Below, one piece after another: positions 17,348 through 24,439 of a DNA stretch of 28,227 nt. This DNA comes from a virus. The DNA lies in the IMG/VR virus record IMGVR_UViG_3300017752_000110, positions 1 through 28,227 of that record, one strand, 5' to 3'. Under the pieces are notes generated by a model. The model was not told where the DNA came from. It saw only the letters and a program-made list of their open reading frames with translations, and made no database searches. Within the stretch, counting starts at the first letter, position 1. Every line of letters starts with the position of its first letter. Made by a program: the position numbers and the translations under genes.

Positions 17348-18859
17348 TTAATTTGTATCTGAAATATATTTAGTATTTTGTTTTTTAATTTCATTTTGTA
17401 TATATTCCATGTTATCGATTCCTCTTATATAATGTAATGTAATCTGTTCATTCCATGCTGGGAATCTCTTCTTCAGTTCTTCTAAATGTAATTTTTTGGT
17501 GTAATTCCAGCCTCTGATGAAGCAGCAAGCATTTAAACCAATGAAGTGTTTCATTTGAACTCCTTGTTTGAATGCGTATTGAGAAACATTTGTATCAGAA
17601 TGTTTGGCTTTTGGGAGTATTTCACAGTGCTCAAATTTTTCCAGAACTTTTTTATTCATCAAATATCCTGCGCCTCCATGCGCCCACGATCTTCCTGCTT
17701 TATCCAAAGGCTCAGAGTATATTTTGTCTTCATTGAAATTATCTTTTATGATACATGATTTTAGTTTTACTTCATTGACATATGTATCATTGTCTACAAA
17801 GAAATAGTAATCATAATTTTTATATCTATCATCATTAATTAACACCTTGAACACCCTCGCATTTTTTTCTACGCAAGATTTATAATCTGAATTATCAGAT
17901 ACCTTTACTATATTCTTTGATACATCTTCATGGTCGGAATAATACATATGATCTATCCTTGAGCCCCATGTTTTTTCTATGGCTTCATATTGTTCTGGTT
18001 GTTTTTCTGTGTGTAATATACAACATAGTATTTTATCTTTAGCATATAATGTATCAGACTTATAATGATTATAATATGCTTCATTTTTATCACAATCATA
18101 TGTAGTAACTTCATGGTATCGATACCATGTACAGCCTTTATGATTAGACCATGCAATGTCACCTGGTGAATACCATCGGTTCGGAGCCGCACCAATTTTC
18201 AATGGAAATAATAGTGATGTTTTGCAGAATGTTTTTTTCGCACAATATTCAAACTTTCTTGCTTGTTGTGTGTGATCATTGGGATGTTTCGTAAATGATT
18301 CTCTGTATATTCTTTTCTGAAACGCCTCTGCCAAGGCGATATTATCATAATCCCCTTTTGTACCTATATAATTTATAAAATCTTTTAAGTTGGAATGATT
18401 ACCTAAATTAATATATTCATCAATGTCTAACATTGCTAACCAATCACTATCTCTTCCTTGTTGGATGTGGTGTAACATTGCCTTCCATTGTGATTCAGGG
18501 TATTTAGATAAGTGATGCACATTATATTCAAATGGAATAAATGTAACATTTGGATACTTATCATTTATTCTATTTAAGATACAATCAATTTCTTCTTCTG
18601 TCCATTCAAGAAAATGATCTATATGAGGTTTCAAGTCCCATCCTTTAGATATTTCACCAGAACATCCTTTATCGCCGAATACCTTTTCTGCAATGGGCCC
18701 TACTTTGTTAGAATATTGTGTAGGCTCAGAAGCTAGATTGAACCCATTATTATAAAAATAGATATGGTCTACGCCCAAATTAAGATTATGTTTTATCCAA
18801 TCTTCTATATAATAAAAATCTAGTCTAGGAGCAAAAAGTGTTACTAAATGTATCTTCAT
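17348..18859 (-). CDS. two-domain glycosyltransferase: GT92-like plus Fringe/GT31-like
   Basis: A 503-residue fusion. The N-terminal half (1-270) looks like a GT92/DUF23-type GT-A domain: it opens MKIHLVTLFAPRLDFYYIED, then HIYFYNNG at 32-39 and WLAMLDIDEYI at 140-150, where D145-D147 is the DxD. The C-terminal half (about 275-503) resembles Fringe and core-1 beta-1,3-galactosyltransferases (GT31): KILCCILHTEKQPEQYEAIE leads to KTWGSR, YYFFVDNDTYV at 351-361 carries the DxD-equivalent D356-D358, and WAHGGAGYLMNKKVL at 392-406 matches the GGAGY block, followed by SDTNVSQYAFKQGV as the acidic and glycine motif. The ATG overlaps the stop of the 52-residue gene (ATGA). Both active sites look intact, so it could add two sugars in series. 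Donors and acceptors are unknown. Confidence 0.8.
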   Translation of the reverse strand: MKIHLVTLFAPRLDFYYIEDWIKHNLNLGVDHIYFYNNGFNLASEPTQYSNKVGPIAEKVFGDKGCSGEISKGWDLKPHIDHFLEWTEEEIDCILNRINDKYPNVTFIPFEYNVHHLSKYPESQWKAMLHHIQQGRDSDWLAMLDIDEYINLGNHSNLKDFINYIGTKGDYDNIALAEAFQKRIYRESFTKHPNDHTQQARKFEYCAKKTFCKTSLLFPLKIGAAPNRWYSPGDIAWSNHKGCTWYRYHEVTTYDCDKNEAYYNHYKSDTLYAKDKILCCILHTEKQPEQYEAIEKTWGSRIDHMYYSDHEDVSKNIVKVSDNSDYKSCVEKNARVFKVLINDDRYKNYDYYFFVDNDTYVNEVKLKSCIIKDNFNEDKIYSEPLDKAGRSWAHGGAGYLMNKKVLEKFEHCEILPKAKHSDTNVSQYAFKQGVQMKHFIGLNACCFIRGWNYTKKLHLEELKKRFPAWNEQITLHYIRGIDNMEYIQNEIKKQNTKYISDTN

Positions 18860-19043: not shown

Positions 19044-19862
19044 TCAATCATATCTTTGTTTTAGATGATCCCAAGCATCACCATTTTCTATCTCATATGG
19101 AAGCCATTGTGCGTATGCTGTATTATTGCACCATTGTGTCCTATCAGGTGTTGGTGGATTATTGAGTTGAGAGAGGTCTTTCATAGCCAGATCCCATACC
19201 ATAGAACCATTATCAAAGTTCACAACAGGTGTTCCAGCTAAAGTAGCATCGACACCACTATTACTATTGATCGTGACAACAACTTTTGCTTTGGCACATG
19301 CTTCGGCAATTGGAATATTGGAATCTGCTATTCCATCTTTTTCAAAAACACCCCATGTCATCCGGCGGTGTGGATGATCTCTGACATAGACAGGAAGATC
19401 TGTATTGGCTTTGATGTCATTAATTATTTTCTGATAATTAACATCCAAGTGATTGATTGAATTATCGCCTTTAATTTGTGTGGTTAATAAGATGTGATCT
19501 CCATCTGTATTCCATTCTTTCAGTCTGCCATCATTGAAGTGTTTCTTCCATCTATCATCTGGCATATTCTTATTATAGAATTCTCCTTTACCATTAAGTC
19601 CATTATAACCTAAGGATATCCATTCAAATCTATCTTCAAGATATGAGCGTTCCATAAGAAGAAAGTCTTTTTTCAATCCGGGTCTTACTATTCTGGCGCC
19701 TCTCATACCCCAAACCAATACTAAATCAGATTCATTATCCCCCTTAAATCCAATTTCAAGATTGGCATTTATATTATGTCTTTTTAAACCACTTACGAAT
19801 TTTTTGGCAGTATCTATTTGATGTGTCTGTCTTGAAGACATTGCGTAACATGATATTTTCAT
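19044..19862 (-). CDS. putative capsule KpsC/KpsS-like glycosyltransferase
   Basis: A 272-residue protein. The C-terminal part (about 150-225) has the layout of the nucleotide-binding half of GT-B capsule transferases: LPVYVRDHPHRRM at about 155-168, then VVVTINSNSGVDATLAGTPV at about 194-213 followed by NFDNGSMVWDL. This SxSGxxATLxGTPVV pattern is typical of KpsC/KpsS and related polysaccharide proteins. The N-terminal half contains ESDLVLVWGMRGARIVRPGL, a plausible Rossmann edge. It is shorter than two-domain Kps proteins. Its ATG overlaps the stop of the GT61-like gene (ATGA), so the two are coupled. A transferase or polysaccharide-processing role is likely; specific activity is not established. 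Confidence 0.6.
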   Translation of the reverse strand: MKISCYAMSSRQTHQIDTAKKFVSGLKRHNINANLEIGFKGDNESDLVLVWGMRGARIVRPGLKKDFLLMERSYLEDRFEWISLGYNGLNGKGEFYNKNMPDDRWKKHFNDGRLKEWNTDGDHILLTTQIKGDNSINHLDVNYQKIINDIKANTDLPVYVRDHPHRRMTWGVFEKDGIADSNIPIAEACAKAKVVVTINSNSGVDATLAGTPVVNFDNGSMVWDLAMKDLSQLNNPPTPDRTQWCNNTAYAQWLPYEIENGDAWDHLKQRYD

Positions 19863-20863
19863 AGTAAGTATAATTTCTTTTTGAATTTCTCGATATCCAC
19901 ATTACATTTGGTCCCGCTGGGGTTGTCATTTAATGCTGTCTTTTTTATTACAGTGTGATATTTAATATCTAAACATGCAGCAAGATGAGTGAAGAAGCTT
20001 CCTGTTATCCATTCGCCGCCCGCGCGCGGGGCTTCTGCTAAGAATTCTATAAGTATCGTATCTTTTTTACATGCTATTAAATTTGTGAAGCCTGCTCCAT
20101 GGCATCCTATTACTATCTTCGCAGAATTAAATTTTTTAAGTTGAGCATCAATAGAGCCCAAATCTTTTGAATCATCATGGTATATTAATTTCAGATTGTT
20201 TTCTTTGCAGTATTTTTTACAGATATCATCCACATCGTCCCAGTTTTGTAGCAGTCTGCAAAAATTCCTTTTTAACAATAATAAAGAATCTTGTTTTGTT
20301 TCGGAAAGATTTAGATTATTGATTATCCTATTACGCACTGATGCGATTTCTTCTTTACTATATAGATCGATACGAGACATATTTCCCATAGTTTTTCCAA
20401 CAGGTAGTAAATGTTTGCATGATATAGTGGAACCATTTTGTAAGAAGATTATATTATCATCTTGAATTTTTGGATATAGTATCTTTATCCACTGTTTAAC
20501 AAAACCGTTAATTTTGGAATCCATTACTAATATTTTACTTTGATTTACCGTGCCTCGGTATTCCGCGGAACCAGATGTCTTCTCTTCTAGTATATTTTGA
20601 ACATAAAAATTCCAAACATAATCTGTGGGGAAATGATAAACATGATCAGAATGCGGACCGATCATCGCCACAGCATTGATAGTGTATGAATTGTGGTCGG
20701 CAAGCGCCGGCATCCTTTCGCGCAGAGGTACTAACTTTTCGCTTTCTTTTTCGAATGGCCATAATTTAACCCATTCTGTATTATAGATAAAGTGTATATT
20801 ACCATCTATAATTTTAAGTGTAGTGTGCAAAACGCGGCGAGGGTGTTGATTAATTGTGATCAT
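19859..20863 (-). CDS. GT61-like glycosyltransferase (DUF563 type)
   Basis: A 334-residue protein whose C-terminal part contains AKIVIGCHGAGFTNLIACKK near residues 249-268, followed by DTILIEF, the signature of GT61/DUF563 transferases (HGAGLTNxxFxxxxxxVIE). LLLLKRN near 197-203 fits the conserved xxRxxxRR-type strand before the donor domain. The N-terminal half carries PHSDHVYHFPTDYVWNFYV near 70-88, similar to the H-x-x-x-D part of the family. GT61 contains plant xylosyltransferases, animal EOGT and some bacterial proteins, all inverting. It is the first transferase of the island, 14 bases downstream of the ParB-like gene, and its stop overlaps the next start. Donor sugar unknown. Confidence 0.75.
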   Translation of the reverse strand: MITINQHPRRVLHTTLKIIDGNIHFIYNTEWVKLWPFEKESEKLVPLRERMPALADHNSYTINAVAMIGPHSDHVYHFPTDYVWNFYVQNILEEKTSGSAEYRGTVNQSKILVMDSKINGFVKQWIKILYPKIQDDNIIFLQNGSTISCKHLLPVGKTMGNMSRIDLYSKEEIASVRNRIINNLNLSETKQDSLLLLKRNFCRLLQNWDDVDDICKKYCKENNLKLIYHDDSKDLGSIDAQLKKFNSAKIVIGCHGAGFTNLIACKKDTILIEFLAEAPRAGGEWITGSFFTHLAACLDIKYHTVIKKTALNDNPSGTKCNVDIEKFKKKLYLL

Positions 20864-22744: not shown

Positions 22745-22811
22745 TGGTGGAGGTGGCTGGAGTTGAACCAGCGTGCTACTCGCTAGGAGCAGTCGATTCC
22801 TCTTCACCCCC
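22745..22811 (-). other. tRNA-like element with intact 3' half, no D arm
   Basis: The minus strand shows a perfect T arm (GCTGG, loop TTCAACT, CCAGC at 22772-22756), a 3' acceptor strand CACCTCC, discriminator A and encoded CCA (22748-22745). A matching 5' acceptor GGGGGTG lies at 22811-22805 (seven pairs, one G-T). Only about 35 bases separate it from the T arm, so no normal D arm fits, and the anticodon arm is ambiguous. The 5' part overlaps the last codons and TAG of the 71-residue gene. It may be a tRNA remnant or a processed tRNA-like 3' end. Confidence 0.6.
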
Positions 22812-22991
22812 GTTAGATTCTTTCATCAATTCTTTTATCTTGGCAACAACTTCGTCGTGTGACCATTTTGCATCGGTATCACCTAGAGCATGTCGCATCT
22901 CCATAATAGAATAGATAGCCCTTGTATATCTTTGAGTGGCTTCAGCTAATTCTGCTTGAAGTGTTTTTTTAGTTTTATTTCTTTCTTTCAT
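22776..22991 (-). CDS. small helical protein (71 aa) in the tRNA cluster
   Basis: The ATG at 22991 gives MKERNKTKKTLQAELAEATQ and a mostly helical protein with a likely coiled coil (about 5-30) and an acidic end (GGEEESTAPSE). The frame is open upstream, but that would extend into tRNA-Arg, so this start is chosen. It begins 22 bases after the tRNA-Arg 3' end and its last codons form the 5' part of the tRNA-like element. No family is recognised. Codon use is normal for the phage. That it is a real gene is likely but not certain; the start lacks a clear ribosome binding site. Confidence 0.55.
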   Translation of the reverse strand: MKERNKTKKTLQAELAEATQRYTRAIYSIMEMRHALGDTDAKWSHDEVVAKIKELMKESNGGEEESTAPSE

Positions 22992-23013
22992 TATATTATA
23001 TAGGGATTTAAAA

Positions 23014-23095: not shown

Positions 23096-23170
<75 letters not shown>

Positions 23171-23195
23171 ATAAAATTAATAAAACCAAATCTAA

Positions 23196-23278
23196 CAGGC
23201 TCTTCCCATCCTGCGGTGGGTCTTCTCTTGTGAAATTGATAAGAGGGTTTGAGCTGTCTCCGCAGGAGTCCGAAGACT
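23196..23278 (-). ncRNA. candidate pseudoknotted structured RNA within the tRNA cluster
   Basis: The gap between tRNA-Glu and tRNA-Asn has several pairings on the minus strand. First, a hairpin AGTC-TTCG-GACT (23278-23267) with the extra-stable cUUCGg loop. Next, a seven-pair stem CCTGCGG (23266-23260) with CCGCAGG (23216-23210), enclosing a hairpin CTCTT/AAGAG (23245-23225). Finally, CAGCTC (23256-23251) inside that stem can pair with GAGC-C-TG (23202-23196) outside it, and CCC can pair with GGG, which makes a pseudoknot. No open frame covers it. T4 also carries non-tRNA stable RNAs in its tRNA cluster. I recognise no known RNA family. Confidence 0.5.
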
Positions 23279-23317
23279 TTATTCCTTTGGCATAGTATTT
23301 GATTTTAAGTGCAGAAA

Positions 23318-23395
23318 TGGCACCCCTACGCGGATTCGAACCGCGGTTGCCTGGATGAAAACCAGATGTCCTAGACCTGGCTAGACGATAGGGGC
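23318..23395 (-). tRNA. tRNA-Glu (anticodon TTC)
   Basis: Full cloverleaf: acceptor GCCCCTA / TAGGGGT, anticodon arm TCTGG-TTTTCAT-CCAGG, T arm CGCGG-TTCGAAT-CCGCG, discriminator G and encoded CCA. It is the first tRNA after the glf gene on this strand. Confidence 0.94.
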
Positions 23396-23446
23396 ATGAA
23401 TTATTTGTTATTATGTACTATATAATAATCTAGATATCTAATAATG

Positions 23447-24439
23447 TCAAACCATATTGTTGATTTTATTCATAGAATCTTTGATGCACATCCACATATC
23501 CATATATTTGTATCGTGCTAATCTACCTAAAAACACAGTATTCTTTTCTTCTTTTACTAATTTTCTATACTGAGAATATTTCTTTTGTCCTTCACCCCAA
23601 GGTATTGGATAAAATGGTATGTCACCCTTCTCCATCTTTTTAGGATATTCTTTAGTGATCACTGTATTCCCACTATGATTTGGGTCAAAGTATGAATGAT
23701 CATATATTCTGGTATACTCCATATCCTTGTTGCATTGATTATAAACCAATGTGTCCAGTTTCTTTTTAGATTCTTCATGTTTTAAATTAAGTGAGCGATA
23801 TTCTAGTTCACCATATCGATAGTCAAAATATTCATCTATCTTTCCCGTGTAGATTAGATAGTCATACTCTTCGTCTTTCCATTCATCTTTATCACAGTTT
23901 AATTTTACCTCGATACCTTCTATCATGTTTTCAAACATACGAGTGTAACCTTCTTTTGGGAGACATTGATATTTCTGACCTTCGAACCAAGTTGGATTAT
24001 CACATCCCCTTGTCTTTGGTATACGATTAGTTATAGTCTTGGGTATATCATCAAATGAAACTCCCCATTGCTTTTCGCTATAATCTCTAAAGATATTTTC
24101 TCTGATTTCATCATCAGACAGTGCTTTTCCTATGTGCTTTTCACTTCCGTTATCGTGATAAGGCAATGGGATATTTCCCAAAGGTGTTACACCTACAGGT
24201 CGATATTCAAATGGAATCCATTCAGTAAACCTTGAAAGAAAAGAAAAGACTTCTTCATCATCTGTATGAAAGATATGTGGGCCATAATTATGAACCATGG
24301 TACCACCCATCTTTGAATCATAGCAGTTGCCCGCTATATGAGAACGAGTTTCATATATCTTAACCTCGTGTCCTTTATCTTTTAATATCCTGCCGGCAGT
24401 GCATCCACTAAGACCACATCCAATAACCAAAAATTTCAC
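23447..24439 (-). CDS. glf: UDP-galactopyranose mutase
   Basis: A 330-residue flavoprotein. It interconverts UDP-galactopyranose and UDP-galactofuranose, the donor for galactofuranose in surface glycans. Residues 4-16 (LVIGCGLSGCTAG) are the FAD-binding GxGxxG loop and ETRSHIAGNCYD near 30-41 completes the dinucleotide fold. HNYGPHIFHT near 50-59, DYSEKQWG near 119-126, YGELEYRSLNL near 209-219 and FLGRLARYKYMDMW near 303-316 are the conserved UGM blocks; the last holds the family's substrate-binding arginine. It is somewhat shorter than the roughly 370-residue bacterial enzymes. The start is GTG at 24439, four bases after an AATAAATA string. It lies upstream of the tRNA cluster, apart from the glycosyltransferase island, with which it may cooperate. 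Confidence 0.92.
   Translation of the reverse strand: MKFLVIGCGLSGCTAGRILKDKGHEVKIYETRSHIAGNCYDSKMGGTMVHNYGPHIFHTDDEEVFSFLSRFTEWIPFEYRPVGVTPLGNIPLPYHDNGSEKHIGKALSDDEIRENIFRDYSEKQWGVSFDDIPKTITNRIPKTRGCDNPTWFEGQKYQCLPKEGYTRMFENMIEGIEVKLNCDKDEWKDEEYDYLIYTGKIDEYFDYRYGELEYRSLNLKHEESKKKLDTLVYNQCNKDMEYTRIYDHSYFDPNHSGNTVITKEYPKKMEKGDIPFYPIPWGEGQKKYSQYRKLVKEEKNTVFLGRLARYKYMDMWMCIKDSMNKINNMV

Follow-up and report, generated by a model that had tools for sequence, protein, structure and literature searches.

A putative family of pseudoknotted RNAs occupying varied intergenic sites in partly unrelated phages

The DNA analysed here, termed the window, is a virus contig of 28.2 kb (28,227 nt; IMG/VR record IMGVR_UViG_3300017752_000110). 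It carries a baseplate wedge gene of T4-like type, for which the matching known phages are marine cyanophages and pelagiphages (~25% identity). The minus strand carries, in order, tRNA-Glu, a gap of 147 bp (23171–23317), tRNA-Asn, tRNA-Arg, a small open reading frame and a 67-nt tmRNA-like domain. Upstream of the cluster is a candidate promoter (Table 1), recognized by a consensus match that is not proof of function. A UDP-galactopyranose mutase (UGM) gene (Pfam GLF; 23447–24439, minus strand) adjoins the tRNA cluster, and with two glycosyltransferase genes (17348–18859 and 19859–20863) it makes up a phage surface-sugar set. Stable RNAs in phage tRNA clusters have long been known; their role is obscure and few have comparative support. 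The T4 cluster holds two such RNAs of obscure role, C and D, which lie among phage tRNA genes as does the RNA described here, a likeness of setting.

The first-pass annotation read the gap as an ordered set of pairings on the tRNA strand. The complementary segments are indeed present at that place on the minus strand: AGTC-TTCG-GACT, CTCTT/AAGAG, ACAG-CTC/GAG-C-CTGT and CCCA/TGGG, together with CCTGCGG/CCGCAGG, which amounts to 8 bp if a flanking U-A pair is counted. Judged on the window sequence by itself, they do not stand out clearly from chance. The score of the proposed pseudoknot topology was equalled in 25 of 1500 dinucleotide shuffles and in 18 of 760 sliding windows from the same contig, nested folding of the gap sequence gave z = -0.5 to -1.07, and single-sequence folding energy is unremarkable in most members of the family described below. 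Such figures speak for chance complementarity in an ordinary spacer. It is the relatives that decide whether the pairings are real.

The window sequence by itself, with three stems of the first-pass annotation, served to build a covariance model, which was run over 83 sequences and found two further viral contigs, L289 (88 bits, E 1.7e-19) and L294 (38.5 bits, E 1.6e-6). A pattern for the shared core, which fixed the GCTC strand of stem P3 and the CCC/GGG of P5, matched these and six new viral contigs (L305–L310), giving nine contigs with the window. A second covariance model, R2, matches all nine at E ≤ 2.1e-20, with one copy per contig; on the window, which is one of the model's own sequences, the match spans 23176–23324 (E 2.6e-31). 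The members are ~131–138 nt in length, and all nine contigs are viral, with no bacterial genome among them. A pattern scan of 84,980 prokaryote genomes gave eight matches, all without the rest of the element and without a match to R2, and a second, looser pattern likewise added only sequences with no match to R2. Another fifty records, made up of three known phages and of contigs bearing UGM or a tmRNA domain, were without a match. A blastn comparison of two members with 50,697 phage records returned nothing useful, and exact 15-mer and 16-specified-base scans gave chance matches only. The closest UGM relatives, L002–L004, have no copy of the element; in L002, tRNA-Asn and tRNA-Glu are 6 nt apart.

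The sequences were aligned with MAFFT without structural information, and RNAalifold, applied to eight rows, gave a nested fold with pair counts far above those of shuffled and slid controls. The modelled fold is closed by P1, a stem of 14 bp, and continues with the long UUCG hairpin P2 and a domain of three stems (P3/P4/P5); the 5′ tail and the P5 loop pair as a pseudoknot (Table 1). Among the seven distinct aligned sequences, six of which are closely alike, this model of 36 pairs, pseudoknot included, is paired in 96.8% of cells, compared with 33–47% when slid. Double changes are found in 17 of the 36 pairs, a count reached by none of 500 shuffles (mean 4.0; 1–2 in slides). Compensatory changes across homologues exceed the controls, the general mark of a structured non-coding RNA. 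The search pattern preset the P3 GCTC strand and the P5 CCC/GGG, and invariance there says little; it left P1, the lower stem of P2, P4 and the pseudoknot free. In the lower stem of P2, an A-U pair becomes U-G in L308 and U-A in L294, and a C-G pair becomes U-A in L294. A hairpin CTCC-NNN-GGAG, proposed by RNAalifold, was replaced by the long P2, which better accounts for the L308 change. The excess of G-U over A-C cells (8 versus 4) is only mild, and strand assignment therefore rests also on gene direction.

Table 1. Features of the RNA element and its surroundings in the window (P, paired region)
Feature	Position	Strand	Remarks
Whole RNA element (5′ tail, P1–P5, pseudoknot)	23181..23317	-	R2 match; homologues found from window alone
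5′ tail TTCTGC, pseudoknot 5′ strand	23311..23316	-	pairs with P5 loop
P5 loop GCAGGA, pseudoknot 3′ strand	23209..23214	-	complementary to 5′ tail, covaries
P1 closing stem, 5′ arm TAAAATCAAATACTA	23293..23307	-	14 pairs, 8 changed on both sides, 97.9% paired
P1 closing stem, 3′ arm TAGATTTGGTTTTA	23181..23194	-	same P1 alignment counts
P2 long hairpin CCAAAGG-AATAA-AGTC-TTCG-GACT-CCTGCGG	23260..23290	-	lower stem covaries
P3 5′ strand GCTC	23251..23254	-	96.4% paired; change on one side only; search pattern partly fixed this strand
P3 3′ strand GAGC	23199..23202	-	pairs with GCTC in the alignment
P4 hairpin CTCTT...AAGAG	23225..23245	-	double changes in 3 of 4 counted pairs
P5 hairpin CCCA...TGGG	23205..23220	-	loop carries pseudoknot strand; 96.4% of cells paired, nearly invariant
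tRNA-Glu	23318..23395	-	ends 1 nt before RNA element; encoded CCA beside the element's tail
tRNA-Asn	23096..23170	-	begins 10 nt after P1
Candidate sigma70-like promoter TTGACA-17-TATTAT	23422..23450	-	upstream of tRNA cluster; consensus match 11/12

The helix between the tail and the P5 loop is the best of 9316 helices tested outside P1 registers. It is paired in 95.1% of cells and has double changes in three of its six pairs, a count reached by 5 of 500 shuffles and lost in slides. The window has TTCTGC/GCAGGA at this position, L289 has TTCTGT/GCAGAA, L294 has TTCTAC/GTAGAA, and L308 has TCCTGT/ACAGGA; in L305–L307 and L310, five of the six pairs are kept. The helix crosses the nested stems and is backed by covariation, as is expected of a pseudoknot. 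The element is almost certainly a real conserved RNA, a member of an undescribed RNA family that recurs in partly unrelated phages. Chance complementarity, by comparison, is scarcely credible given covarying homologues in unlike genomic contexts, and in our judgement conservation across non-homologous sites refutes it.

The relatives redraw much of the first-pass annotation, which had placed a candidate RNA of new type at 23196–23278. This extent is too short for an element of ~137 nt (23181–23317). The UUCG hairpin, the enclosed hairpin CTCTT/AAGAG (P4) and the CCC/GGG pairing (P5, invariant) are confirmed by the relatives. The seven-pair long-range stem CCTGCGG/CCGCAGG is not conserved: 78% of cells are paired, and in four sequences two of the pairs do not form. 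This complementarity arises because part of P2 in the window sequence also complements the P5 loop. A loop segment, CAGCTC, had been paired with GAGC as a pseudoknot; GCTC/GAGC does pair in relatives (P3), but because the seven-pair stem drops out, it is a nested stem. Covariation had been proposed as a check on long stem and pseudoknot alike, and a pseudoknot does covary, although it is that of the tail with the P5 loop, which had been missed along with the outer stem P1. Thus, the observation of ordered pairings in the gap is partly confirmed and its interpretation partly supported. The general claim, that the gap holds a new RNA with a pseudoknot and is not just a spacer, is supported by homologues with strong covariation. 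It had also been said to belong to no known family, and the three members searched (window gap, L305 and L294) gave no credible match to any Rfam model at E ≤ 10, manA and wcaG included.

Two smaller features of the alignment may be mentioned. P4 of the window (CTCTTATCAATTTCACAAGAG, 23225–23245) is nearly identical to that of L294, the most distant member, and is unlike that of closer relatives, which suggests recombination between family members. In addition, a micro-frame ATGCCAAAGGAATAA (MPKE, stop; 23276–23290, minus strand) is common to most members and reads ATGCCAATGGAATAA in L308 and ATGGGCAAATAG in L294. A leader peptide encoded by this frame was not adopted as an explanation, L294 being without that form.

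The core occupies at least five dissimilar contexts, and in each it runs in the same sense as the neighbouring genes. The window copy lies between tRNA-Glu and tRNA-Asn, and those of L289 and L294 immediately precede a tag-less tmRNA domain; in these three of nine contigs, the neighbour is a tRNA or tmRNA-like gene and is not translated. The copies in L305, L307 and L310 precede a small basic open reading frame, a gp59-like gene and gp32, those in L306 and L309 precede a small open reading frame upstream of Hsp20 and DNA polymerase, and the L308 copy has Hsp20 on one side and a 2OG-Fe(II) oxygenase gene on the other. The L294 contig carries genes for ERF, endonuclease VII and DnaB but none of the T4-specific genes tested for, and appears therefore to belong to another lineage, not T4-like. 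The family thus looks to span two phage lineages. Contigs L184 and L293 match L294 on both flanks but have an empty site, without the ~136 bp at the RNA position. L305 and L310 are ~96% identical on either side of a replaced gene just upstream of the RNA, with a breakpoint near the 5′ edge of the RNA. Together, these cases indicate that the RNA is gained, lost or exchanged as a unit.

Two structured RNAs of marine T4-like phages, manA (RF01745) and wcaG (RF01761), are likewise scattered before varied genes (PMC2864571). The new RNA might be a cis-acting 5′ leader, a riboswitch or a protein-controlled element that serves marine phage genes much as manA or wcaG RNAs do. An open reading frame does start 5–38 nt after the RNA in L305, L306, L308 and L310, as expected of a 5′ leader, and Hsp20 genes lie near the RNA in L306 and L308; in marine T4-like phages, manA RNAs are reported near small heat-shock genes and upstream of those for the chaperone ibpA (PMC2864571). 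Yet the downstream genes are unrelated (the gp59/gp32 operon, 2OG oxygenase and unassigned genes), the three members searched do not match manA or wcaG at E ≤ 10, and the new RNA also precedes tRNA and tmRNA-like genes. A non-coding RNA gene as downstream neighbour in three of nine contigs argues against a classic translational riboswitch; as leaders, these copies would have to be displaced, or act on a later open reading frame or on transcript stability. A leader function is a serious possibility, although on balance an unlikely one.

In mobility, the nearest comparison is with the cassettes of T4-type phages known as PeSLs (Arbiol 2010; Comeau 2014; via PMC4503421), which by that description are also intergenic, dispersed and located at the boundaries of exchanged modules. 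The RNA could be a regulatory and recombination cassette of this kind, marking transcript ends or stabilizing mRNA, with the provision of shared homology for module swapping as its main evolutionary role. The dispersed intergenic positions, the empty site and the gene replacement with a breakpoint near the RNA would all fit. A PeSL, however, is described as an early promoter with a simple stem-loop (PMC4503421), and the 36-pair fold, conserved unpaired core and pseudoknot are far more than that. Location at a module boundary was seen, but no conserved promoter or U-tract was noted in the element when the alignment was read by eye, the PeSLs being compared by description. A role mainly as a cassette is unlikely. 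The nearest known RNAs by setting are manA and wcaG and by mobility the PeSLs; in the comparisons made, the new RNA matches neither and is assigned to neither.

The conservation, the fold and the distribution at non-homologous sites are direct observations on this RNA, whereas its function is inferred. The explanation tentatively preferred is that of an autonomous phage RNA gene, transcribed together with its neighbours, acting in trans and exchanged between phages as an intergenic module. The tail lies beside the encoded CCA of tRNA-Glu, and 10 nt separate the end of P1 from tRNA-Asn, so that ordinary processing of the tRNAs would release the RNA: in the window phage, 3′ processing of tRNA-Glu would free its 5′ end and RNase P cleavage at tRNA-Asn its 3′ end. 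For the L289 and L294 copies, the 3′ end would be set by RNase P where it cuts at the tmRNA-like domain. The released RNA would most likely bind a host or phage protein, and the gene may be gained and lost as well as exchanged. A compact, pseudoknotted RNA beside processed RNAs in three contigs might also be a ribozyme that cleaves itself and so trims transcripts beside tRNA and tmRNA-like genes, but no Rfam ribozyme family matches the three members searched, and RNase P and tRNA 3′ processing already provide ends there; this proposal is very improbable. An HDV-like nested pseudoknot, an RNase P-like core and a glutamine riboswitch were weighed as well and set aside because nothing supported them. 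The RNA offers a tested fold with a pseudoknot, a searchable model, a natural empty site and an apparent spread over two phage lineages, so that the role of such RNAs becomes directly testable.

The tmRNA-like genes near the RNA deserve separate mention. tmRNA (RF00023), in its tag-less form, lies directly 3′ of the RNA in L289 and L294, but the RNA itself does not match tmRNA; cmscan places the tRNA-like domain only outside the element, and no tmRNA was called on the stretches of L305–L310 examined. The tag-less tmRNA of the window (67 nt, 22745–22811, minus strand; Rfam tmRNA, 51.3 bits) has the full tRNA-like domain with G3-U70 and an encoded CCA, and a 5-nt loop in place of the mRNA-like domain. 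A strict pattern for it matched 25 viral contigs and no prokaryote genome; there are 14 distinct sequences, counting the window, and the second stem covaries. A form consisting of the tRNA-like domain only is known from mycobacteriophage DS6A, and a molecule like it reportedly inhibits tmRNA, perhaps because it titrates SmpB (PMC4131195, PMC11915505). The tag-less tmRNAs look like a wider phage class of such decoys. Perhaps the mobile pseudoknotted RNA belongs with these decoys in islands of RNA genes and acts in trans on host translation or RNA machinery; this is improbable, but if true, these phages would use several small RNAs together to counter ribosome rescue or RNA turnover.

Long non-coding stretches flank the tRNA cluster of the close relative L002 (5952–6480 and 4784–5215). 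They are GC-richer or repeat-bearing, absent from the window and without an Rfam match, and the folding z of the former is only -1.14. In the window, a conserved open reading frame of 72 amino acids (22776–22994, minus strand) overlaps the 5′ part of the tag-less tmRNA with its 3′ end, an arrangement also found in L002 and L131. Given this overlap, RNase P cleavage there would truncate the mRNA.
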